Positions 7,538 through 60,526 of a stretch of DNA of 64,000 nt are shown here, piece by piece. Position numbers and translations under genes: made by a program. The notes under the pieces are model-generated. The model did not search any database. It was not told the origin of the DNA and was given only the letters and a program-made list of their open reading frames with translations. Position 1 is the first letter of the stretch; each line of letters starts with the position of its first letter. This DNA is from Thermoanaerobacter kivui (GTDB lineage: Bacteria > Bacillota > Thermoanaerobacteria > Thermoanaerobacterales > Thermoanaerobacteraceae), in the NCBI RefSeq assembly GCF_000763575.1, contig NZ_CP009170.1, positions 1,141,501 to 1,205,500 of the forward strand. Direction: 5' to 3'.

Positions 7538-8602
7538 GTGAATAAAAGATTACAAAACTTGAGAAATTTAATGAAAGAAAAAGACATAGAAGCTTTTGTT
7601 ATTTACAAATTTGTAAATGTTACATATATAACGGGATTTACAGGAGATGACAGTGCAGCTTTTATAACCCATGATAAAGCTATTTTTATAACAGATGCGA
7701 GGTATACAGAACAGGCGCAAAAGGAAGTTAAAGACTTTGAAGTGATAGAACATAAAAATGGTATAAAAGAAGTTATAAAAGAATATATAGAGAAATTGAG
7801 AATAAAAAAACTCGCTTTTGAAGAAAACATTTCTTTTAGGCAGTATAAAGAATTGAAAGATTTTTTAGGCATTAAACTTGTACCTCAAGCAAATCTTGTA
7901 GAGACTTTGAGAATGGTAAAAGATGATACGGAAATAGAAAACATAAAAAAGGCGCAAAATATTACTGATATGGCTTTTAACCATATACTGAATTTTATTA
8001 AAGTTGGGATGACTGAAAGAGAAGTGGCTTTGGAATTGGAATATTTTATGAAAAAACAGGGGGCACAGGACCTATCTTTTGAGGCAATTGTGGCTTCCGG
8101 GAAAAGGTCTTCACTTCCTCATGGAAAAGCTTCGGAAAAAGTAATTGAAAAAGGAGACTTTGTCACATTGGATTTTGGATGCAAAGTAAACGGTTATTGT
8201 TCAGATATGACAAGGACAATAGTCATGGGAAAAGCTGATGACAGGCAAAAAGAGATATACAATATAGTTTTAGAAGCACAGCAAAGAGCAATAGACAATT
8301 TAAAAGCAGGAATTACTTCAAAAGAGGCAGATTCTCTGGCAAGGTCTGTTATTGAAGAGAAAGGTTATGGGAAGTACTTTGGGCATTCTTTGGGACATGG
8401 TGTAGGACTTGAAGTTCATGAAGCGCCCAGCCTGTCTTTCAAAAATGAAGAAATTTTAAAAGAAGGAGCAATAGTTACTGTAGAACCGGGTATATATATT
8501 CCCGATTTTGGTGGCGTAAGAATCGAAGATATGGTATTATTAAAAGAAGATGGTGTTACAAATTTGACTAATTCACCTAAATATTTAATTGAACTAAACT
8601 AA
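7538..8602 (+). CDS. Xaa-Pro aminopeptidase, M24B family
   Basis: 354 residues starting at GTG after GGGGGG. The N-terminal creatinase-like domain (to about 125) is followed by a pita-bread metallopeptidase domain. Metal ligands are visible in LDFGCKVNGYCSDMTRT, HSLGHGVGLEVHE, VTVEPGIYIP and GVRIEDM, so the enzyme should be active on X-Pro N-termini or X-Pro dipeptides. The position just upstream of efp is conserved in many Firmicutes. Whether it is PepP- or PepQ-like cannot be settled by eye. Confidence 0.88.
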   Translation: MNKRLQNLRNLMKEKDIEAFVIYKFVNVTYITGFTGDDSAAFITHDKAIFITDARYTEQAQKEVKDFEVIEHKNGIKEVIKEYIEKLRIKKLAFEENISFRQYKELKDFLGIKLVPQANLVETLRMVKDDTEIENIKKAQNITDMAFNHILNFIKVGMTEREVALELEYFMKKQGAQDLSFEAIVASGKRSSLPHGKASEKVIEKGDFVTLDFGCKVNGYCSDMTRTIVMGKADDRQKEIYNIVLEAQQRAIDNLKAGITSKEADSLARSVIEEKGYGKYFGHSLGHGVGLEVHEAPSLSFKNEEILKEGAIVTVEPGIYIPDFGGVRIEDMVLLKEDGVTNLTNSPKYLIELN

Positions 8603-8620
8603 AGTGATGGAGGGATTTTT

Positions 8621-9178
8621 TTGATAGCAGCAGGTGATTTCAGAAAAGGAGTAACTATTGAGGTTGACGGACAGGTTTTTACAGTTGTGGATTTTATGCA
8701 TGTTAAGCCAGGAAAAGGTGCAGCTTTCGTGAGGACAAAACTTAAAAATGTGATGACAGGGGCTGTAATAGAGAAAACTTTCAGCCCAACAGAAAAGTTT
8801 GAGGAAGCAGTTATAGAAAGAAGAGAAATGCAGTATTTGTACAATGATGGAGAACTTTATTATTTTATGGACACAGAAACTTATGAGCAAATTCCTTTAA
8901 ATTATGATAAAGTTGAGGACGCAATTAAATACATAAAGGAAAATATGGTTGTTACAGTAAAGTTCTATAAAGGCGAAGCCTTTTCTGTTGAGCCCCCTAC
9001 TTTTGTTGAGCTGGAAGTTGTAGAAACAGAGCCTGGATTTAGAGGAGATACTGCAACGGGTGGTTCCAAACCGGCAACTGTAGAAACTGGTGCTGTCATC
9101 CAAGTCCCATTGTTTATAAACGTTGGAGACAAAATAAGAATTGACACTCGAACCGGAGAATATTTAGAGAGGGTATAA
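8621..9178 (+). CDS. efp: Elongation factor P
   Basis: 185 residues with a TTG start after GGAGGG. EF-P relieves ribosome stalling at polyproline. Domain I carries the loop [19 protein letters not shown] with a lysine at the usual modification position. Domains II and III end in [17 protein letters not shown], the canonical C-terminus. The AUG-less start gives IAAGDFRKG, the expected N-terminus. It sits 18 bases after the peptidase gene. Confidence 0.95.
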
Positions 9179-9226
9179 ACGCAGCAATTTGTCAAATACT
9201 ATTTTGTAAAGGAGGGTATGTGGAAT

Positions 9227-9688
9227 ATGGAATACTTAAATGAAAGGGTTTCCTACTTAAGAGGGTTAGCAGACGGCTTAGGGATAGATGACAGCACAAA
9301 AGAAGGTAAAATAATTTTGGCAATTTTAGATACTTTAGAGGATTTTGCAGATGCTATAAATGAGCTGGAAGCTTCCCATTCCGAATTAGATGATTATGTG
9401 GGAGAGATTGATGAAGACCTTTCTGAAATAGAAAACCAGATATATGGCGATGAGGACTATGATGATGAAGATGACGACTATGACTATGATTATGACGATG
9501 ATGATGAAGATGAGGATGAAGACGAAGATTATGAAGGGTATGTAGAAGTAGAATGTCCTAATTGCCATATGTTGATGAGTGTGGAAGAAGAGCTTTTAGA
9601 AGATGAAGATGCTGAGTTGGTATGTCCTCATTGCAATGAGACCATAAAAGTAAAAGATTTGAAAATTGTAGATGATGATGAAGACTAA
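9227..9688 (+). CDS. Acidic CD1247-type protein with C-terminal zinc ribbon
   Basis: 153 residues from ATG 9227, which has a better spacing (11 bases) from AAAGGAGG than the in-frame ATG at 9218 (2 bases). The N-terminal part (YLNERVSYLRGLADGL) is helical and resembles the CD1247 N-terminal domain of Clostridia. The middle is an extreme Asp/Glu/Tyr run (about residues 76-107) encoded by GAT/GAC/GAA repeats. The C-terminus has CPNCHML and CPHCNE, a zinc ribbon. Function unknown. It is the last gene before a strong terminator. Confidence 0.72.
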   Translation: MEYLNERVSYLRGLADGLGIDDSTKEGKIILAILDTLEDFADAINELEASHSELDDYVGEIDEDLSEIENQIYGDEDYDDEDDDYDYDYDDDDEDEDEDEDYEGYVEVECPNCHMLMSVEEELLEDEDAELVCPHCNETIKVKDLKIVDDDED

Positions 9689-14932: not shown

Positions 14933-15331
14933 ATGGAAGAAAATATTAATTTGACAGAAAAACAAGAATTGGGAACTATAAAGATTTCTGAAGAAGTTGT
15001 AAGCGTAATTGCAGGATTGGCGGCAACTGAAGTACCAGGTGTTGCAGGCATGAGCGGGGGAGTTGTAAACGGCATTTCAGAGATGTTGGGAAGAAAAAAT
15101 TTAGGTAAGGGTGTAAAAGTAGAGGTAGGGGAAAAAGAAGCAGTTGTGGATTTGTACTTAATAGTGGATTATGGTGTAAGAATACCTGAAGTAGCTTGGA
15201 ACGTTCAGGAAAATGTAAAGAATTCTATAGAAAGCATGACAGGGTTAAAAGTTGTAGAAGTCAATATTCATGTTCAGGGTGTTAATATGGATAAGGAGGT
15301 CAAAGCGGAAGCAAAAAAACAAGAAAATTAA
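14933..15331 (+). CDS. Asp23/Gls24 family envelope stress protein
   Basis: 132 residues. The Asp23 motif GTIKISEEVVSVIAGLAATEVPGVAGMSGG and the later IPEVAWNVQENVKNSIESMTG segment identify the family. Asp23 proteins form a membrane-associated layer anchored by AmaP. The gene order here (asp23, amaP, DUF2273, nusB) matches that in other Firmicutes. The start follows AAAGGGGTG. Confidence 0.9.
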   Translation: MEENINLTEKQELGTIKISEEVVSVIAGLAATEVPGVAGMSGGVVNGISEMLGRKNLGKGVKVEVGEKEAVVDLYLIVDYGVRIPEVAWNVQENVKNSIESMTGLKVVEVNIHVQGVNMDKEVKAEAKKQEN

Positions 15332-15340
15332 CCATCAGAT

Positions 15341-15376
15341 CAAACTAACCCTCTGAAAAACCAGAGGGTTAGTTTG
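15341..15376 (+). repeat. Perfect 15-bp inverted repeat between asp23 and amaP
   Basis: CAAACTAACCCTCTG (15341-15355) and CAGAGGGTTAGTTTG (15362-15376) form a perfect 15-bp stem with a 6-base loop. No T run follows; the next bases are GATTGGAGG, the amaP ribosome site. It is therefore unlikely to be a simple terminator and may instead protect or process the mRNA. Confidence 0.75.
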
Positions 15377-15393
15377 GATTGGAGGAATTGAAA

Positions 15394-15927
15394 ATGAAGT
15401 TGCTAAGCAGATTTTTATTGGCACTTTTTACTTTTATTGTTTTGGTTTTTTCTGTATTATTAATAGCTCTAAGTTTTGGTATAATAAATATGGATTCAAT
15501 TACCACGGTTATAAAGAATTTGCACGGTAACTGGGTATATTCGATATTAGGGGTATTTCTTATAATTGCAAGTTTAATATTACTATTTGATGGAACAAGC
15601 AAGAGAAGTGCGATTGCCGGAGTGACTCTCACAAGTAAGTACGGAGATATAAATATTTCATATGATACAATAATAAGTTTGGCAGAAAAACAGGTGAGGA
15701 AAATAGATGGTGTAAAGAGCTTAAATATATATGCCTCTAAAAATCAAGATAAAGTACAATTGACTATGAATGTGACAATTGCTCCTGATGTCATAATTCC
15801 AGAAATAATACAAGTAGTGCAAAAGGAGATTAAAGAGTATATAGAAAGAAATACTTCTATATACATAGAAAATATCAAAGTAAATGTGGTCAATACAAAT
15901 TCTACCGTAAAAATGAGGGTGGAATAG
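15394..15927 (+). CDS. amaP: Alkaline shock membrane anchor protein AmaP
   Basis: 177 residues from ATG 15394, 8 bases after TTGGAGG. Two transmembrane helices (about 8-29 and 47-66) precede an Asp23-like domain with KYGDINISYDTIISLAEKQVRKIDGV. AmaP tethers Asp23 to the membrane in staphylococci. The gene follows asp23 and precedes the DUF2273 gene by 2 bases, which supports the assignment. Confidence 0.85.
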   Translation: MKLLSRFLLALFTFIVLVFSVLLIALSFGIINMDSITTVIKNLHGNWVYSILGVFLIIASLILLFDGTSKRSAIAGVTLTSKYGDINISYDTIISLAEKQVRKIDGVKSLNIYASKNQDKVQLTMNVTIAPDVIIPEIIQVVQKEIKEYIERNTSIYIENIKVNVVNTNSTVKMRVE

Positions 15928-15929
15928 TT

Positions 15930-16160
15930 ATGGACATCGACAAATTTTTTGAGGTATTTAAAGAAAATAAAGGTAAAATAATTGGTGTTATATTGGGTTT
16001 TATAGTTGCTTTGAGTATCTTGTTAATAGGTTTTTTTAAAACTATATTTATAGGAATTTGTATAATTGGAGGATATTATATTGGTAAAAAAATTGATGAA
16101 GGAGAAAACATAGCTAATTTGGTAGATAGTATTTTGCCACCCTGGAAGAGAAGGAGTTGA
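15930..16160 (+). CDS. DUF2273 small membrane protein
   Basis: 76 residues with two closely spaced hydrophobic segments (about 16-34 and 36-50) around a [12 protein letters not shown] motif. DUF2273 proteins sit next to Asp23/AmaP genes and are thought to be part of the same membrane-associated stress layer. The biochemical role is unknown. ATG directly follows the amaP stop. Confidence 0.82.
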
Positions 16161-37883: not shown

Positions 37884-38507
37884 TTGAAATTTTTAAAAGG
37901 AAAATTTTATTTGCATATTAGGCATAATTCTCTTCTATATGTACTTGTGATAATCTCGTTAATGATAGGGATAGCAGCAGGTTCTTTTACTGTAAACAAC
38001 ATAACTGAGGTGCAAAAAGAGCAAATAATAAATTACATCTCTAAGTTTTATCAAGTGGCAAAAGCCACAAATTTAAGTTCTGTGCAAATCTTCAAGCAGT
38101 CTCTGTTAAACAATTTTGTGACGGTTTTTGTGCTTTGGATTTTGGGAGCAACTATTATAGGTATTCCATTTATATTTTTAGTAATAGGTATAAGAGGATT
38201 TATGTTGGGATTTTCTATAGGAATTTTAATCGGGGAATTCAAGTTGAAAGGGATATTACTTGTTTTAGTGGGTATTGTACCTCAAAATGTTTTTATATTG
38301 TTGGGTTTATTGTTTATATCTGTAACCTGTATTAATTTTTCTATTTACCTTTTAAAAAATCGCAAATTCAGCATTGAAGAATTGTTTTCACAATTTATAT
38401 CCTACACTTTTATGGTATACGCGGGATTTATAGTGATTTTGGTAGGAAGCTTAATAGAGTCTTATATTTCGCCATATATATTACTTTTACCGCCTTTTTC
38501 ACAGTAA
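37884..38507 (+). CDS. spoIIM: Stage II sporulation protein M
   Basis: 207 residues with a TTG start after TAGGGGGC. Five membrane helices (about 14-34, 73-95, 98-118, 124-155, 172-196). The sequence HNSLLYVLVIISLMIGIAAGSF and LGATIIGIPFIFLVIGIRGFMLGF are typical. SpoIIM joins SpoIID and SpoIIP in the peptidoglycan-degrading complex that drives engulfment. Placed before xerD, as in many Clostridia. Confidence 0.9.
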   Translation: MKFLKGKFYLHIRHNSLLYVLVIISLMIGIAAGSFTVNNITEVQKEQIINYISKFYQVAKATNLSSVQIFKQSLLNNFVTVFVLWILGATIIGIPFIFLVIGIRGFMLGFSIGILIGEFKLKGILLVLVGIVPQNVFILLGLLFISVTCINFSIYLLKNRKFSIEELFSQFISYTFMVYAGFIVILVGSLIESYISPYILLLPPFSQ

Positions 38508-38593: not shown

Positions 38594-39466
38594 ATGTTAA
38601 ATGATATCGTTGGGGAGTTTTTAGATTTTTTAAAAAAACAAAAAAGATTGTCCAAGAATACCCTTGAATCTTATAGCAGGGACATAAACCAATTTTTCAA
38701 ATATCTAAATAATTCTCATATTAATTACCTTCATGTAAAAAAGTCAATAATATTAAATTATCTGTATTATTTAAAGAAAAATGGGAAATCTCAAGCAACT
38801 ATCTCCAGAAGTCTTTCTTCGCTTAAGGCTTTTTATCATTATCTGTTTATGAAGAAACTGATAGAAGAAGACCCGACGTATATGATAGATACTCCAAAAG
38901 TAGAAAAAAGAGTCCCTGCCACATTGACAGTAGAACAAGTAGATATGTTGTTATCTTTAGATTTTGGCAATGATGAAAAGGGACTTAGAGATAAGGCTTT
39001 AATTGAATTACTTTATGCGACCGGACTTAAAGTTTCAGAAGTGATCTCTCTTAAGTTGGAGGATGTAAATCTTTCTTATGGTTACATAGTGACTCGTTCA
39101 GGTAAAGAAAGAGTAATTCCTATAGGGTCTCATGCTATTGCTGCTTTGAAAGATTATATTGAAAAAGGACGCAAAGGAAATCCTGAAGAAAAAACGCTTT
39201 TTTTGAATTTAAGAGGTAAAAAACTTACAAGACAAGGTTGTTGGAAAATAATAAGAGAATATACCGACAAAATAAATCCTGGTTTTCCTGTTACTCCTAA
39301 TACTTTGCGCCAATCTTTTGCACAGCATATGTTAGAAAACGGTGCAGATGTGCGTGCTGTTCAAGAAATGTTAGGATATCAAACAGATTTCAATGCAAAT
39401 TTAATTTCTTTGATGTCTAAGTCAAAAATAAAAGAAGTATATAATAAATTTCATCCAAGAGCGTAA
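38594..39466 (+). CDS. XerD-like recombinase with degenerate active site
   Basis: 290 residues from ATG 38594, normal XerD length, with both the SAM-like core-binding domain (about 1-90) and the catalytic fold ending in the characteristic HPRA. Aligned with E. coli XerD, five of six active-site residues are replaced: Arg148 by Lys146 (ATGLKVSE), Lys172 by Arg168, His244 by Asn236 (TPNTLRQSF), His270 by Tyr262 (LGYQ) and the nucleophile Tyr279 by Ile271. Only the second Arg (239) remains. DNA strand cleavage is not expected. The frame is full-length, so a DNA-binding or partner role may be conserved. A working XerC/D or XerH should exist elsewhere in the genome. Confidence 0.88.
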   Translation: MLNDIVGEFLDFLKKQKRLSKNTLESYSRDINQFFKYLNNSHINYLHVKKSIILNYLYYLKKNGKSQATISRSLSSLKAFYHYLFMKKLIEEDPTYMIDTPKVEKRVPATLTVEQVDMLLSLDFGNDEKGLRDKALIELLYATGLKVSEVISLKLEDVNLSYGYIVTRSGKERVIPIGSHAIAALKDYIEKGRKGNPEEKTLFLNLRGKKLTRQGCWKIIREYTDKINPGFPVTPNTLRQSFAQHMLENGADVRAVQEMLGYQTDFNANLISLMSKSKIKEVYNKFHPRA

Positions 39467-39525: not shown

Positions 39526-40668
39526 ATGTTTAAAAGGGCGTTAATTGTAGTACTTACCTTGATAATAATGAGTTCTTTTGTTTTTAATAACAGCGTTTAT
39601 GCTGATAACTTAAATTTAAAATCTAAGTCTGCTATTTTAATAGATGCTAATACAGGACAAATTTTGTATGAAAAAGATAGCCACAAAATTTTGCCTCCTG
39701 CCAGTGTGACAAAAGTAATGACTCTTTTGTTGGCCATTGAAGCAATAGATTCCGGAAAAATCAAAATAACTGACAAGGTTGTAACAAGCAAGCACGCTTA
39801 TGACATGGGAGGCACTCAAATATACTTAGAAATAGGAGAAGAGATGACAGTAGATGATTTGATGAAAGCGATAGCTATGAATTCTGCCAATGATGCATCA
39901 GTTGCATTAGCAGAGTATATCGCAGGTACAGAGGAAAACTTTGTGGAGATGATGAATAAAAGGGCAAAAGAGCTGGGAGCTAAAAACACAAACTTTAAAA
40001 ATGCTTCAGGACTACCCGAGGAAGGTCATGTAACGACTGTTTATGATATGGCCATGATTTCCAGAGAGTTAGTAAAACACCAAAGTATTTTTAAATATTT
40101 GACCAATAAATTGGATTCTTTAAGAGGAGGAAAATTTAGCCTTATAAATACAAATAAATTGTTGTGGCGCTATAAAGGAGCTGATGGCATTAAAACAGGT
40201 TCTACTTCAGAAGCTTTGTATTGTCTCACAGCAACGGCAAAACGCGGAGATACGCGGTTAATAGCTGTGGTTTTTGGCGCACCTGATTCTGAGACAAGAT
40301 TTAACGAAACAGCAAAACTATTAGATTACGGATTTGCAAATTATGAAACTTTAAAAGTAGCTTCTAAAGGACAGGTATTTGGGAATGTCAGAGTGTTAAA
40401 AGGCAAACAAGATACTATTGCTGCTATATCACAGCAAGAAGAATATGTGCTGATTAGAAAAGGAGAAAGCAAAAACATAAAGACTGAGATAAATTTGAAT
40501 AAATTTATACAAGCTCCTGTAAACAAAGATAAAAAAATTGGAACAGTGAAAGTGTTACAAGACGGAAAAGTGATAAAAACCTTTGATTTATATCCTCAAC
40601 AAGAAGTGTTAAGGTCTAATCTTTTGGAAAATTGTAAAAAAATATTTAAAGAGTGGCTAAAAAAATAG
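39526..40668 (+). CDS. dacF: D-alanyl-D-alanine carboxypeptidase DacF
   Basis: 380 residues. A signal peptide (about 1-26, ending NSVYA) precedes an S11 transpeptidase-fold domain with S-x-x-K in PPASVTKVMTLLL, SxN in MNSANDAS and the KTG box in GIKTGSTSEA. The C-terminal domain ends in an amphipathic membrane-binding helix. It trims peptidoglycan side chains. As in Bacillus it precedes the spoIIA genes, but here a terminator separates them. Confidence 0.92.
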   Translation: MFKRALIVVLTLIIMSSFVFNNSVYADNLNLKSKSAILIDANTGQILYEKDSHKILPPASVTKVMTLLLAIEAIDSGKIKITDKVVTSKHAYDMGGTQIYLEIGEEMTVDDLMKAIAMNSANDASVALAEYIAGTEENFVEMMNKRAKELGAKNTNFKNASGLPEEGHVTTVYDMAMISRELVKHQSIFKYLTNKLDSLRGGKFSLINTNKLLWRYKGADGIKTGSTSEALYCLTATAKRGDTRLIAVVFGAPDSETRFNETAKLLDYGFANYETLKVASKGQVFGNVRVLKGKQDTIAAISQQEEYVLIRKGESKNIKTEINLNKFIQAPVNKDKKIGTVKVLQDGKVIKTFDLYPQQEVLRSNLLENCKKIFKEWLKK

Positions 40669-55342: not shown

Positions 55343-56176
55343 GTGGAATTGTGGTTTACAGAACATCAAGATGAAAATTTGAGGTTTTCTTTTAAAGTAA
55401 AAGAGACGTTGGTGGTAGAGAAAACTCCATATCAACATTTAGCAATACTTGATACATATCAGTTAGGAAGAGTATTAACTTTAGATGGAATTGTTCAAAC
55501 AACAGAAAAAGACGAATTTGTATACCATGAGATGATAGTCCATGTACCGCTTTTTACCCATAAAAATCCTAAAAGCGTATTGATTGTCGGTGGTGGCGAT
55601 GGTGGTTCAGTGAAAGAAGTGTTAAAACATCCTTCTGTTGAAAGAGTAGTGTTAGCAGAAATTGATGAAGCAGTAGTGAGAAATTCACAAAAATATCTCC
55701 CTACTATAAGCTATGGTTTGCAGGATAAAAGAGTAGAAATAATGATTGGAGATGGAATAAAATACGTAAATGAACACAAAAATGAGTTTGATGTGGTAAT
55801 AGTAGATTCTACAGATCCAATAGGACCTGCAGTAGGATTGTTTACTTTTGATTTTTATAAATCAGTTTATGAATGCTTGAAAGATGATGGGATTATTGTT
55901 GCACAGACAGAATCGCCATTTATTTATGGAAAATTGATAAACAAGCTAAGCAAAATGTTTAAAGAAATATATCCAATAACAAAAGCTTATATATGCACTA
56001 TACCCACTTATCCGGGAAGTTTGTGGACATTTACAATGGGATCTAAAAAGTATGACCCTGAAGAGGTGGATATAAACTCTATTCCGAGAATAGATACAAA
56101 GTATTACACGCCTGAAATTCACAAAGCAGCTTTTGTGTTGCCTAAGTTTGTGAAGGATATTTTTGATGAGGTGTAA
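55343..56176 (+). CDS. speE: Spermidine synthase
   Basis: 277 residues with a GTG start after TTTGGAGGTG. It transfers the aminopropyl group from decarboxylated SAM to putrescine. Motifs: [57 protein letters not shown]. The length is normal. Directly followed by speB. Confidence 0.94.
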
Positions 56177-56177
56177 C

Positions 56178-57044
56178 ATGATACAAGAGGATGTTTTTGT
56201 TAACACCGGTAAATTCCTTGGCGCGATTGAAAATTATGAAAAGTCAGATGTAGTTATAGTAGGACTGCCTATGGATTATACAGTAAGTTTTAAGACAGGA
56301 AGCCGATTTGGACCTTCTGCTATAAGACAAGCTTCATACGGCTTAGAGGATTACAGTGTGTATCTGGATAGAAGTTTGCAAAATAGAAATTATTGTGACT
56401 TAGGGGATGTAGTGTTTCCATACGGAAATGTTGAAAAAAGTTTAGATGTGATTGGTAAAGTAGTTAAAAATATTTTGCAAGACGACAAAAAGGGATTGTT
56501 TTTAGGAGGAGAGCATTTAGTAACATATGCGATTATAAAAGAGTATTTCAAAAAATACGGAAATGACCTAATAATCCTCCATTTTGATGCTCATGCTGAT
56601 TTGCGAGAGGAGTTTTTTGGAGAGGTTTATTCCCATGCGACAGTTATGAGAAAAGTTTGGGACTTTTTCAAGGACAAAAATCTATATCACTTTGGTATAA
56701 GGTCAGGTGTAAAAGAAGAGTTTGACTTTGCAAAAGACCATACTCATATGTTTTTGTACAAAGTAGTTGAACCTTTAAAAAACACAGTGAGTGAAATAAA
56801 AGACCGCCCTATTTATATTACATGGGATATAGACGTTGTAGACCCTGCTTTTGCTCCTGGTACGGGGACGCCAGAACCAGGAGGCATAACTTCAAAAGAA
56901 GCGTTAGAAGCAATACATCTATTGAAAGATTTAAACGTAGTGGGGATGGATTTAGTAGAAGTATCTCCCTCCCACGATTTAGCAGGAATAACGACTTTTT
57001 TGGCTGCTAAGCTTATCAGAGAATCCCTCCTTTCGTTTTTCTAA
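56178..57044 (+). CDS. speB: Agmatinase
   Basis: 288 residues from ATG 56178 after GAGGTG. An ureohydrolase converting agmatine to putrescine and urea. Manganese ligands in GGEHLVTY, HFDAHADLREEF and DIDVVDPAFAPGTGTPEPGG. Coupled with speE (1-base gap), so putrescine from this enzyme feeds spermidine synthesis. No speA is in the window. Confidence 0.94.
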   Translation: MIQEDVFVNTGKFLGAIENYEKSDVVIVGLPMDYTVSFKTGSRFGPSAIRQASYGLEDYSVYLDRSLQNRNYCDLGDVVFPYGNVEKSLDVIGKVVKNILQDDKKGLFLGGEHLVTYAIIKEYFKKYGNDLIILHFDAHADLREEFFGEVYSHATVMRKVWDFFKDKNLYHFGIRSGVKEEFDFAKDHTHMFLYKVVEPLKNTVSEIKDRPIYITWDIDVVDPAFAPGTGTPEPGGITSKEALEAIHLLKDLNVVGMDLVEVSPSHDLAGITTFLAAKLIRESLLSFF

Positions 57045-57079
57045 AACTTTTGAGCCATTTTGGCTCTTTTTTATTTTTT
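57044..57079 (+). terminator. Terminator after speB
   Basis: GAGCCA (57052-57057) and TGGCTC (57061-57066) with a TTT loop, followed by TTTTTTATTTTTTT. Preceded by AAAACTTTT. Confidence 0.88.
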
Positions 57080-57123
57080 TTAGCAGCTAAAAATAGTATA
57101 ATATATTATGAGGAGGTATTAAT

Positions 57124-58521
57124 ATGAACAGTAAAGTTAAAATTACGGAAACTGTATTAAGAGATGCGCACCAATCCCTTTTAGCGACAAGAATGTCAAC
57201 AGAAGAAATGCTTCCTATTGCGGATAAATTAGATAAAGTAGGATATCATTCCATAGAGGCATGGGGAGGAGCTACTTTTGACGCTTGCATGAGATTTCTC
57301 AATGAAGATCCATGGGAGAGGTTGAGAAGGTTAAAGAGCAAAATAAAAAATACGCCATTGCAGATGCTTTTAAGAGGACAAAATTTGTTGGGGTATAAGC
57401 ATTATCCAGATGATATAGTGACAAAATTCATCGAGAAGTCTATTGAAAATGGCATAGACATAATAAGAATTTTTGATGCATTAAATGATGTACGAAATCT
57501 TGAAGTTGCTATTAAAGCTACAAAAAAGGCGGGAGCCCATGCTCAAGGTACACTGGTTTATACTATAAGCCCTGTTCACAACATTGACCATTACCTTAAA
57601 GTAGCAAAAGAGCTTGTACAATTAGGTGTTGATTCAATATGCATAAAAGACATGTCTGGAATCCTAACTCCTTATACCGCTTATGAATTAGTGAAAAGCC
57701 TTAAAGAAACAGTAAATGTTCCTATACAGTTGCACAGTCATTATACCAGTGGTATGGCAGCTATGACCTATTTAAAGGCAATAGAAGCTGGGGCGGATAT
57801 AATAGATACTGCTATATCTCCTTTAGCATTGGGGACTTCTCAGCCTGCAACAGAGACTATGGTAGCTGTATTAAAAGGTACTCAATATGATACAGGATTG
57901 GATATGGAACTATTATCTGAAATTGCCGAGCATTTCAAAGAAGTAAAACAAAGTCACAGCAAAGATTCTGATCTGTCTATGGTTACGGGAGTAGATACAG
58001 ACGTACTAATTTACCAAGTTCCAGGTGGAATGTTGTCAAATTTGATTTTACAATTGAAACAACAAAATGCGTTGCATAAATATGAAGAAGTATTAAAAGA
58101 AATTCCCAGAGTGAGGGAAGATTTAGGCTATCCACCTCTTGTTACTCCTATGAGTCAGATGGTGGGAACACAGGCGGCTTTAAATGTAATAACTGGCGAA
58201 AGATATAAAATGGTTCCAAAAGAAGTCAAAGACTATGTAAAGGGGTTGTATGGAAGGCCACCTGCCCCTATTTCTGAAGAAATAAAAAAGAAAATAATAG
58301 GAAATGAAGAAGTGATAGATGTTCGGCCAGCTGACCTTTTGAAGCCGCAATTTGAAGCGATTAAAGAAGAAATAAAAGAATACTACGAACAAGAAGAGGA
58401 TGTTTTATCTTATGCCCTATTCCCTCAGGTAGCAAAAAAATTTTTTGAATACAGACGAGCTCAAAAATACAAAATAGATGCGACTCTTGTCAACATGGAA
58501 TATATGACATATCCGGTTTAA
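57124..58521 (+). CDS. Oxaloacetate decarboxylase alpha / pyruvate carboxylase B subunit, no biotin domain
   Basis: 465 residues. The carboxyltransferase TIM barrel begins ITETVLRDAHQSLLATRM, then SIEAWGGATFDACMRFLNEDPWERL, FDALNDVRN, and a PYC_OADA region with MVTGVDTDVLIYQVPGGMLSNL and YPPLVTPMSQMVGTQAA. The C-terminus (FFEYRRAQKY) ends without the biotinyl lysine motif (AMKM). A separate carrier must exist. The catalytic role is biotin-dependent transcarboxylation of pyruvate/oxaloacetate. The ATG follows GAGGAGG, with TATAAT at 57097. Confidence 0.88.
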   Translation: MNSKVKITETVLRDAHQSLLATRMSTEEMLPIADKLDKVGYHSIEAWGGATFDACMRFLNEDPWERLRRLKSKIKNTPLQMLLRGQNLLGYKHYPDDIVTKFIEKSIENGIDIIRIFDALNDVRNLEVAIKATKKAGAHAQGTLVYTISPVHNIDHYLKVAKELVQLGVDSICIKDMSGILTPYTAYELVKSLKETVNVPIQLHSHYTSGMAAMTYLKAIEAGADIIDTAISPLALGTSQPATETMVAVLKGTQYDTGLDMELLSEIAEHFKEVKQSHSKDSDLSMVTGVDTDVLIYQVPGGMLSNLILQLKQQNALHKYEEVLKEIPRVREDLGYPPLVTPMSQMVGTQAALNVITGERYKMVPKEVKDYVKGLYGRPPAPISEEIKKKIIGNEEVIDVRPADLLKPQFEAIKEEIKEYYEQEEDVLSYALFPQVAKKFFEYRRAQKYKIDATLVNMEYMTYPV

Positions 58522-58550
58522 CAGGGAAGTTACTCCCTGTTTTTTTTATT
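58519..58550 (+). terminator. Terminator after the carboxyltransferase
   Basis: AACAGGGA (58520-58527) and TCCCTGTT (58534-58541) form an 8-bp stem around AGTTAC, followed by TTTTTTT. Confidence 0.9.
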
Positions 58551-58570
58551 GCTTAAATTCCTTCACTGTA

Positions 58571-58596
58571 ACATAATTTTTTATCCTTCATAACAT
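58571..58596 (+). promoter_or_regulatory. Possible sigma-K promoter of the LysM gene
   Basis: AC (58571-58572), a 16-base spacer, then CATAACAT (58589-58596) resembles the sigma-K consensus (AC, CATAnnnTA), 29 bases upstream of the start codon. It would make the LysM protein a late mother-cell product. Confidence 0.35.
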
Positions 58597-58625
58597 GTAT
58601 TAGGAAGTAGAAAGGAGGAAATAGG

Positions 58626-59015
58626 ATGGCTTTTGATATGCCTTATTACCATCATTATCCTTACCATCATCACCCGGCTTACTGTAAAACAATTTACACA
58701 GTAAAACCGGGAGATACAATGTGGTCAATAGCTAATATGTTTGGAATAAGCCTTGACTGTTTGATAAGAGCAAACCCGCAGATACCAGATCCAAACTTAA
58801 TATATCCAGGACAGCAAATATGCATACCATTTTATTGCCCACCGCCAAAACCTGAAACTTGCAGAACAATTTACACAGTAAAACCGGGAGATACAATGTG
58901 GTCAATAGCTAACATGTTTGGAATAAGCCTTGACTGCTTAATAAAAGCAAATCCGCAAATACTTGATCCAAATTTGATATATCCAGGACAACAGATATGT
59001 ATACCTTCTGCATAG
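58626..59015 (+). CDS. Two-LysM spore or wall protein
   Basis: 129 residues with no signal peptide. The N-terminus is His/Tyr/Pro-rich (PYYHHYPYHHHPAYC). Two LysM domains follow at about residues 22-70 and 80-128, each with TIYTVKPGDTMWSIANMFGI and a Cys-Leu-Ile-ANPQI loop. Cysteines flank each repeat. LysM binds N-acetylglucosamine polymers. The absence of a secretion signal, together with the histidine tail, suits a spore-coat or cortex-interface protein such as SafA-type proteins; that is an inference. AAAGGAGG stands before the ATG. Confidence 0.82.
   Translation: MAFDMPYYHHYPYHHHPAYCKTIYTVKPGDTMWSIANMFGISLDCLIRANPQIPDPNLIYPGQQICIPFYCPPPKPETCRTIYTVKPGDTMWSIANMFGISLDCLIKANPQILDPNLIYPGQQICIPSA
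58689..59006 (+). repeat. Recent tandem duplication encoding the LysM domains
   Basis: The unit beginning ACAATTTACACAGT (58689) recurs 177 bases later (58866). The first 47 bases are identical, and differences elsewhere are mostly third-position. It corresponds to a 59-codon repeat. Confidence 0.85.
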
Positions 59016-59020
59016 GGTTT

Positions 59021-59059
59021 AGTTGTTAGGGTACCTATAAGGTGCCCTAACAACTAACA
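59021..59059 (+). repeat. Long inverted repeat between convergent genes
   Basis: TTAGTTGTTAGGGTACC (59021-59037) pairs over 17 positions, one G-U, with GGTGCCCTAACAACTAA (59043-59059) around TATAA. It covers the stop of the reverse-strand gene at 59047-59049. It lacks a T run on either side, so it is only a possible bidirectional stop. Confidence 0.65.
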
Positions 59060-59685
59060 TGTAGATAAATAGTGTTAGGATAATTGCTTATGTACTTTAT
59101 AACTTTTACTGGGCCCGGTTGAATATTTTTGCCACATTTCAAACAAGTATAATTTTTTGATTCTTTTAAGTAGGAATAACTCACTTCTATGTTTAAATGT
59201 CCGTATTTTTTCCAACTATCCCAACCAGTTTTACACAATTTAGATCTATTTTCATAATCTGCGTATACCCATCTCAATAATCGGTGAAAATGAAAAGGAT
59301 ATTTTGTATATCTTAAAAATTTTTCTGGCAACCCTAAGGAAAGTGCATAATCTTCAAAAGACCTTTCTATGACATCTTGAAGAGGATTTAGTATTTGTGT
59401 ACTTTCCCAATTATGCCCTTCTTTTTCTAACCATTTTCTCAAGTTATCAAACATATAACCTCTACAAACCAGTATTTTTTCTTCTTTATCTGTTCTAAGC
59501 TTTTTTAAGAGAGTCTTTGCTATTTCACAAGCTTTTACTAAATATAGTTTCTTTTTGAAATTTTCTTCGCTATAATATTCTATGGGAATTATATCACAGA
59601 GAAATTCACCAGTTTCTACTCTCATAGCTCCAATACAAGTTCCGCCTACCAAACTTCCACTTCCTGCGTCATCTATTTGTATCAC
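59047..59685 (-). CDS. Uncharacterised protein, N-terminal DDAGSGS motif and C-terminal zinc ribbon
   Basis: 212 residues. The N-terminus IQIDDAGSGSLVGGTCIGA and EYYSEENFKKKLYL suggest an RNase H-like beta-hairpin with paired Asp. VCRGYMFDNLRKWLEKEG is in the middle. The C-terminus contains CLKCGKNIQPG, then a Cys near the end, a treble-clef zinc element. I do not recognise a named family. It is one of two reverse-strand genes in a + strand region and converges on the LysM gene. A role in RNA or nucleotide handling would be speculation. Confidence 0.7.
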   Translation of the reverse strand: MIQIDDAGSGSLVGGTCIGAMRVETGEFLCDIIPIEYYSEENFKKKLYLVKACEIAKTLLKKLRTDKEEKILVCRGYMFDNLRKWLEKEGHNWESTQILNPLQDVIERSFEDYALSLGLPEKFLRYTKYPFHFHRLLRWVYADYENRSKLCKTGWDSWKKYGHLNIEVSYSYLKESKNYTCLKCGKNIQPGPVKVIKYISNYPNTIYLHVSC

Positions 59686-59767
59686 TGTATCACTCCTTGC
59701 CTATATATAAATTTTATAATAAAATCAAAGTAATTATACACAAACTTTACATAAGAGGAGGTAAAAA

Positions 59768-60526
59768 ATGAAAATACTTCTTACTAATGACGATGGAGTT
59801 CACGCATTAGGAATTTTAAAATTGGCGGACTATCTTAAAAACAAATACCATGTCATTGTTGTAGCTCCGGAAAGAGAAAGAAGTGCTGTAAGTCATGCGA
59901 TTACTCTTCACAAACCTTTAAGGCTTAAGAAAGTAAAAGAGGAAAATAACTTAAAAATATATGCTGTCAACGGTACCCCTTCTGACTGCGTCAAATTGGG
60001 AATTGAAGTAGTGCTGGGACAAAAACCTGACCTTGTGATTTCAGGAATAAATGAAGGTTTAAACCTTGGTACAGACATATTATATTCCGGTACAGTATCA
60101 GCTGCTATAGAAGCTGCTATTTACGGTATTCCAGCTATTGCAGTATCTCTGTCTGAAAAAGCAGAAGTAGAAGATAAACGCATTTATAAATTTTTGGAAA
60201 ATTTAATAACAAAAGTCTTACAAAAGGGTATTCCTGCAAACACATTATTAAATGTAAATATACCAGATTTAAAGGAAAACATAAAAGGAGTAAAATCTAC
60301 AATATTAGGAAAAAGAACTTACATTGAAACTTTTCAAAAAAATTTTGATCCAAGAGGAAAAGAGTATTATTGGATGGCAGGAAAGATTTCAGAGGCGGAA
60401 AACGACGAACGAACAGATATAGTCTCTGTCAAAAATGGTTATATCTCTATTACTCCTATACATTTTGATTTGACCAGCTACGACATGATAGATGACATAA
60501 ATTCTTGGAATTTAAAAATAGAGTGA
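59768..60526 (+). CDS. surE: 5'-nucleotidase SurE
   Basis: 252 residues. A metal-dependent nucleotidase: LTNDDGVHALGI (paired Asp ligands), VVAPERERSAVSHAIT, NGTPSDCVKLGI, DLVISGINEGLNLGTDILYSGTVSAAIEAA. Hydrolyses nucleoside monophosphates and short polyphosphate, linked with stationary survival. AGAGGAGG lies before the ATG. Apparently monocistronic; the DNA after it is a decayed operon. Confidence 0.94.
   Translation: MKILLTNDDGVHALGILKLADYLKNKYHVIVVAPERERSAVSHAITLHKPLRLKKVKEENNLKIYAVNGTPSDCVKLGIEVVLGQKPDLVISGINEGLNLGTDILYSGTVSAAIEAAIYGIPAIAVSLSEKAEVEDKRIYKFLENLITKVLQKGIPANTLLNVNIPDLKENIKGVKSTILGKRTYIETFQKNFDPRGKEYYWMAGKISEAENDERTDIVSVKNGYISITPIHFDLTSYDMIDDINSWNLKIE

Follow-up and report, generated by a model that had tools for sequence, protein, structure and literature searches.

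A XerD orthologue with replaced catalytic residues in Thermoanaerobacter kivui and a candidate one-recombinase Xer/dif system in its order

The window analysed here is a 64,000-nucleotide stretch of Thermoanaerobacter kivui DNA, positions 1141501-1205500 on a single 2,397,824-bp contig. In it, an open reading frame on the + strand runs unbroken from an ATG at 38594 to the stop codon at 39466 and encodes 290 amino acids. Its best family is TIGR02225 (XerD; residues 8-290, E 7.5e-96) with 320.9 bits, 8.7 bits below the equivalog cut-off of 329.6 bits; a Caldanaerobacter orthologue that is equally dead clears this cut-off with 331.0 bits. From tree and synteny, the frame is clearly a XerD orthologue. 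It lies between two genes that we take to be spoIIM (from synteny and family knowledge) and dacF (from family knowledge). The unbroken frame, both domains, the HPRA end and the spoIIM-xerD-dacF position described in the original prediction were all seen in the reading frame, the Pfam matches and the neighbouring frames. The features of the locus, in window coordinates, are as follows.

37884..38507, + strand: upstream neighbour, presumably spoIIM-like (ORF; orthologues in relatives)
38594..39466, + strand: xerD orthologue, predicted to be catalytically dead, 290 aa (ORF, translation, TIGR02225 best family)
38594..38893, + strand: core-binding (SAM-like) domain, residues 1-100 (PF02899 at residues 8-85; AF2 helices)
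38924..39466, + strand: former catalytic domain, residues 111-290 (PF00589 at residues 111-263; VIA-align Z 16.8 to XerD-CTD/FtsK-gamma 5dcf)
39029..39031, + strand: K146 codon, Arg148 position (alignment to E. coli XerD)
39095..39097, + strand: R168 codon, Lys172 column (alignment uncertain, hairpin shortened)
39227..39274, + strand: putative DNA-binding helix, residues 212-227 (TRQGCWKII...), highly constrained (identity 0.80 between dead genera, omega 0.03)
39299..39301, + strand: N236 codon, His244 position (alignment to E. coli XerD)
39308..39310, + strand: R239 codon, Arg247, kept (alignment to E. coli XerD)
39377..39379, + strand: Y262 codon, His270 position (Tyr invariant across the dead clade)
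39380..39409, + strand: relaxed nucleophile loop, residues 263-272 (identity 0.19 vs 0.75-1.00 in active comparators; omega 0.26 vs 0; pLDDT < 50 at 265-274)
39404..39406, + strand: I271 codon, in place of Tyr279, within the nucleophile loop
39410..39463, + strand: conserved C-terminal helix and HPRA tail, residues 273-290 (identity 0.85 between dead genera vs 0.57-0.75 in active comparators)
39526..40668, + strand: downstream neighbour, presumably dacF-like (ORF; conserved synteny)

In the alignment, the E. coli XerD hexad R148-K172-H244-R247-H270-Y279 becomes K146-R168-N236-R239-Y262-I271; the catalytic R-K-H-R-H-Y with its nucleophilic tyrosine is absent, and K-R-N-R-Y-I is found instead. 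The alignment thus bears out the predicted Lys, Asn, Tyr and Ile at Arg148, His244, His270 and Tyr279 and the retention of Arg247, and places no tyrosine at the nucleophile position. The predicted change of Lys172 fared less well. An arginine does stand in that column, but Lys172 to Arg is not diagnostic of catalytic loss: the beta-hairpin lacks two residues relative to that of E. coli, which makes the column ambiguous, a neighbouring lysine (KER) is retained, and many Tyr-positive clostridial XerDs also have no lysine there. The missing nucleophile argues strongly against DNA cleavage at dif together with XerC.

An AlphaFold2 model built from a 55-sequence alignment (mean pLDDT 88.8, residues 265-274 below 50) confidently predicts the two-domain core-binding and catalytic fold also indicated by PF02899 and PF00589, the nucleophile loop excepted. 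Its structural matches include an archaeal Xer (Z 22.4), XerH-difH (5jjv, Z 17.9) and Cre-lox complexes and, lower down, the repressors SroF (Z 15.9) and MrpR (Z 12.8). Likeness of fold alone shows no function.

The gene is carried by 19 of the 20 genomes of the GTDB family, and all 19 copies are of the dead type, in Thermoanaerobacter, Caldanaerobacter and Thermoanaerobacterium (named carriers include Thermoanaerobacter thermocopriae, T. wiegelii, Caldanaerobacter subterraneus, Thermoanaerobacterium saccharolyticum and Thermoanaerobacterium butyriciformans). Every intact family orthologue has Ile or Leu at Tyr279, Tyr at His270 and Asn or Ser at His244; Arg148 is retained in one dead orthologue (L014). 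The single exception to intactness is T. wiegelii (G002/L075), in which a T run has lost one base, shifting the frame; the remaining gene is intact and the deletion may be a sequencing error. Among 112 aligned Xer sequences, the 26 in which the tyrosine is replaced (a number that counts some genomes twice, the same genome having been fetched twice) all belong to the clade of these three genera, while Tyr279 and His270 are retained in all 82 other XerD relatives compared. Judged from these sequences, this confinement to one clade is more than chance, and the tree groups the dead XerDs as a single clade that arose once (SH-aLRT 100). The orthologues display conserved changes instead of random decay.

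The comparison of orthologues suggested with the original prediction gave substitutions fixed across the clade and a dN/dS of about 0.09. Pairwise dN/dS values of dead xerD are mostly 0.03-0.2; pooled over a handful of pairs, dN/dS is 0.092 in dead xerD versus 0.058 in the active f4 relatives, and in short segments, for which the values are approximate, it is 0.029 in the helix 212-227, 0.057 at the C-terminus and, in the nucleophile loop, 0.264 versus 0 in the active set. Thermoanaerobacter/Caldanaerobacter and Thermoanaerobacterium share 19% identity in the loop, where active comparators share 75-100%, but 85% in the last 18 residues, where the figure for actives is 57-75%. Moreover, 50 of the 63 positions conserved above 90% in active XerDs are retained in all dead XerDs. 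Dead xerD is under purifying selection and is not decaying; what relaxation there is falls mainly in the loop that formerly held the tyrosine, and the DNA-binding helix and C-terminal tail are tightly constrained. This is the pattern expected of a protein that has given up catalysis but still binds DNA and keeps a protein interface. The fold family suggests that the helix 212-227 contacts DNA.

The original prediction also tied the protein to sporulation, and this part did not stand. Active XerDs occupy the same neighbourhood (NUDIX-SpoIIM-XerD-DacF in L084), and the spoIIM/dacF position is therefore ancestral. The three genes also separate freely in relatives: G001 has spoIIM, another ORF that fills the gap and dacF, with no trace of xerD between them; in G020 and G021, dacF directly follows spoIIM; in f3 genomes other genes follow spoIIM; and in the f4 genomes G034 and G036, XerD is present and SpoIIM is not detectable. 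Elsewhere in the window, at 56001-60000, the GC skew falls to 0.07 from surrounding values of about 0.2-0.29; this segment may have been inserted or may run in the opposite orientation.

The original prediction had suggested looking for another Xer. The T. kivui genome has one other full-length tyrosine recombinase, a XerC-like protein of 333 aa with all six catalytic residues (R-K-H-R-H-Y). Its orthologue occurs in 37 of 37 class genomes. The sole further tyrosine-recombinase match in the genome is a broken phage-integrase remnant (L003, G000:C1:2338341-2338550). Two features outside the window, in contig coordinates, belong together here.

1220394-1220423 (G000:C1:1220394-1220423), outside the window: symmetric 30-bp dif-like site (L155), just upstream of the xerC-like gene, at the GC-skew switch
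1220455-1221453, outside the window: xerC-like gene, containing the cumulative GC-skew maximum (at 1221315; 258 kb examined)

The T. kivui copy of the site reads AATTATACGAAATA-AC-TATTTCGTATAATT, and its general form, AATTATACGAAATA-NN-TATTTCGTATAATT, is perfectly symmetric; the central two bases occur in either orientation (AC/GT) depending on the strain. With at most 3 mismatches, the site was found in 23 of 24 order genomes, several of them without XerD, and the 13 f4 genomes gave no match; the only order genome without one is G023, whose xerC lies at a contig end. In a sample of 299 phylum genomes, matches were found in family members only. The canonical Firmicutes dif (at most 3 mismatches) had no match in the T. 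kivui genome and 36 class relatives. In G001 and G011 the site adjoins xerC, 1.7 and 1.8 kb from the GC-skew maximum. For G020 and G021 the distances are 6.6 and 2.7 kb to xerC but 281 and 66 bp to the maximum. Because the skew switch follows the site where site and xerC are separated, the site is very probably dif, and these same two genomes rule out a palindrome serving merely as a xerC operator.

In f4 relatives, which carry a Tyr-bearing XerD, a related palindrome, ATTGCACAAAAT-N4-ATTTTGTGCAAT, is found about 30 bp upstream of xerC in 6 of 7 genomes examined, and the symmetric site is therefore probably older than the loss of XerD catalysis. The dead or absent XerD and the order's version of the site reflect a single common history and do not count as many independent events. 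At its GC-skew switch, T. kivui thus has a symmetric dif-like site, and its genome encodes one complete tyrosine recombinase. G001 and the f2 and f3 genomes have no detectable XerD orthologue, and they have SMC and, except G023, the same site. XerD is therefore unneeded for dif recombination in the order, which appears to use a one-recombinase Xer/dif system with the XerC-like enzyme acting alone on a symmetric dif.

Two side observations were also made. Imperfect dif-like copies lie a few kb from extra tyrosine recombinase genes in G008:C31 (site 16727, recombinase 8407-9291), G009:C32 (site 8793, recombinase 15141-16025) and G013:C30 (site 10544, recombinase 15222-16097), which suggests mobile elements exploiting this Xer site. 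A second recurring palindrome, AATTATACGAAAT-CATA-ATTTCGKATAATT, occurs off the terminus (G001:C1:547796, G002:C1:805249, G013:C99:65013, G014:C8:6708, G018:C1:921654).

We propose that XerD is, very likely, a DNA-binding pseudo-enzyme maintained here by selection. Chromosome dimers would be resolved by the single XerC-like recombinase on the symmetric dif at the terminus; cutting by XerD would no longer have been needed, and the nucleophile and most of the active site would have been lost in the common ancestor of the three genera. What would have preserved XerD is continued binding to specific DNA and contact with a partner, the pattern of constraint pointing to the conserved C-terminal helix for that contact. 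Of the candidate jobs, the likeliest, by analogy with B. subtilis, would be to sit on sites in the terminus region and expel arriving SMC complexes. In that species, according to two papers, XerD unloads SMC at the terminus independently of recombination (PMC8523169; PMC13220808). In the order, SMC is encoded in 24 of 24 genomes. Work by Karaboja in 2021 reportedly found that this unloading needs neither the catalytic residue nor XerC. Streptococci, which use XerS, have a non-catalytic XerD-like protein whose gene lies beside scpA/scpB; our literature search gave no confirmation of it.

We give even chances to the explanation as a whole, in which the dead XerD is retained for a recombination-independent job beside a one-enzyme dif system. 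SMC unloading as that specific job is a tentative assignment, for which the chances fall somewhat short of even. A natural separation of function, in which XerD, after the clade's move to a one-enzyme Xer/dif system, was stripped of recombination and left solely a chromosome-organising SMC unloader at the terminus, is possible and more doubtful still. The genomes with SMC and without detectable XerD (G001, f2 and f3) imply that XerD is not strictly needed for SMC function, so that unloading by XerD is not obligatory in the order. In the 258 kb surrounding the terminus, searches for enriched 12-mers and for half-sites resembling those of XerD gave no convincing candidate for a family of binding sites, and the overall dN/dS, somewhat above that of active relatives, also counts against the proposal. 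Purifying selection, the DNA-binding elements, the predicted fold and the fixed substitutions nevertheless support the predicted turn from recombinase to DNA-binding protein, with the sporulation tie set aside.

The dead XerD might instead be a non-catalytic subunit of the Xer synapse: its conserved C-terminal helix would link it to the XerC-like enzyme, which it would then activate or direct in the way that XerC and XerD act on each other in other organisms. In the Xer family this helix docks between protomers, and the greater identity of the tail than in active comparators (0.85 against 0.57-0.75) is in line with such pairing. However, the dif-like site has perfect symmetry, and G001 and G020, which are without XerD, carry an identical one; the XerC-like enzyme should therefore occupy both arms alone, and we regard a synapse subunit as unlikely. 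Improbable too is a transcriptional or other sequence-specific regulator resembling the phage repressors MrpR and SroF: the predicted DNA-binding fold is intact, both repressors are among the structural matches (Z 12.8 and 15.9) and MrpR is without recombination activity (PMC10516654), but they are distant sequences and not orthologues, no operator candidate was found, and XerD-specific sequence is kept throughout, C-terminal tail included.

Two further readings are unlikely. Early decay of a gene without function would account for the T. wiegelii frameshift and for the loss of the gene from relatives in the order, but it is very hard to reconcile with the unbroken copies in 18 other family genomes, which span three genera and are 60-86% identical, and with their dN/dS of about 0.09 and segment-specific constraint; moreover, the T. 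wiegelii copy has no further decay and may reflect a sequencing error. Relocated catalysis, with Tyr262 in the place of His270 as the new nucleophile of a still active enzyme, is scarcely credible: this tyrosine is invariant in all dead sequences and occurs in 0 of 82 active relatives, but Arg148 and His244 are lost as well, and Tyr262 lies nine residues from the old nucleophile position, the loop between being relaxed and folded with low confidence.

Retention of XerD as a DNA-binding pseudo-enzyme would be of wider interest. Annotations everywhere call XerD a recombinase, and even the dead copies reach or nearly reach the recombinase cut-off. If selection has removed nothing but the cutting from one clade's XerD, that clade would be a natural test of XerD's other roles and of the generality of SMC unloading. 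Neither the dead XerD clade nor the symmetric dif with a lone XerC-like enzyme was described in the literature searched; the latter would add one more single-recombinase system of dimer resolution, its intermediates preserved as a Tyr-bearing XerD in f4, a dead XerD in three genera and none in the rest of the order.

Among known systems, the T. kivui protein is closest to XerD (RipX) of B. subtilis and other Firmicutes, as a full-length orthologue with TIGR02225 as best match, an HPRA C-terminus and the spoIIM/dacF neighbourhood of several active relatives; it differs from them in the replacement of the nucleophilic tyrosine, both histidines and Arg148, and in its score (320.9 vs 329.6 bits). 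In XerS/difSL of streptococci and lactococci, a single recombinase acts with a dif-like site beside its own gene (PMC5357621), and the T. kivui xerC-like gene also has an adjoining site; however, the XerC-like protein falls below the XerS cut-off (149 vs 267 bits), and its site, a perfect dyad, has a short centre; difSL, in contrast, has imperfect symmetry and a centre of 11 bp. MrpR of SPbeta and SroF of phi3T likewise use a tyrosine-recombinase fold for DNA binding without recombination (for MrpR, PMC10516654). Unlike these phage repressors, with which it has low sequence similarity, the T. kivui case concerns a chromosomal housekeeping XerD, and MrpR, in contrast, retains the tyrosine and the lysine.
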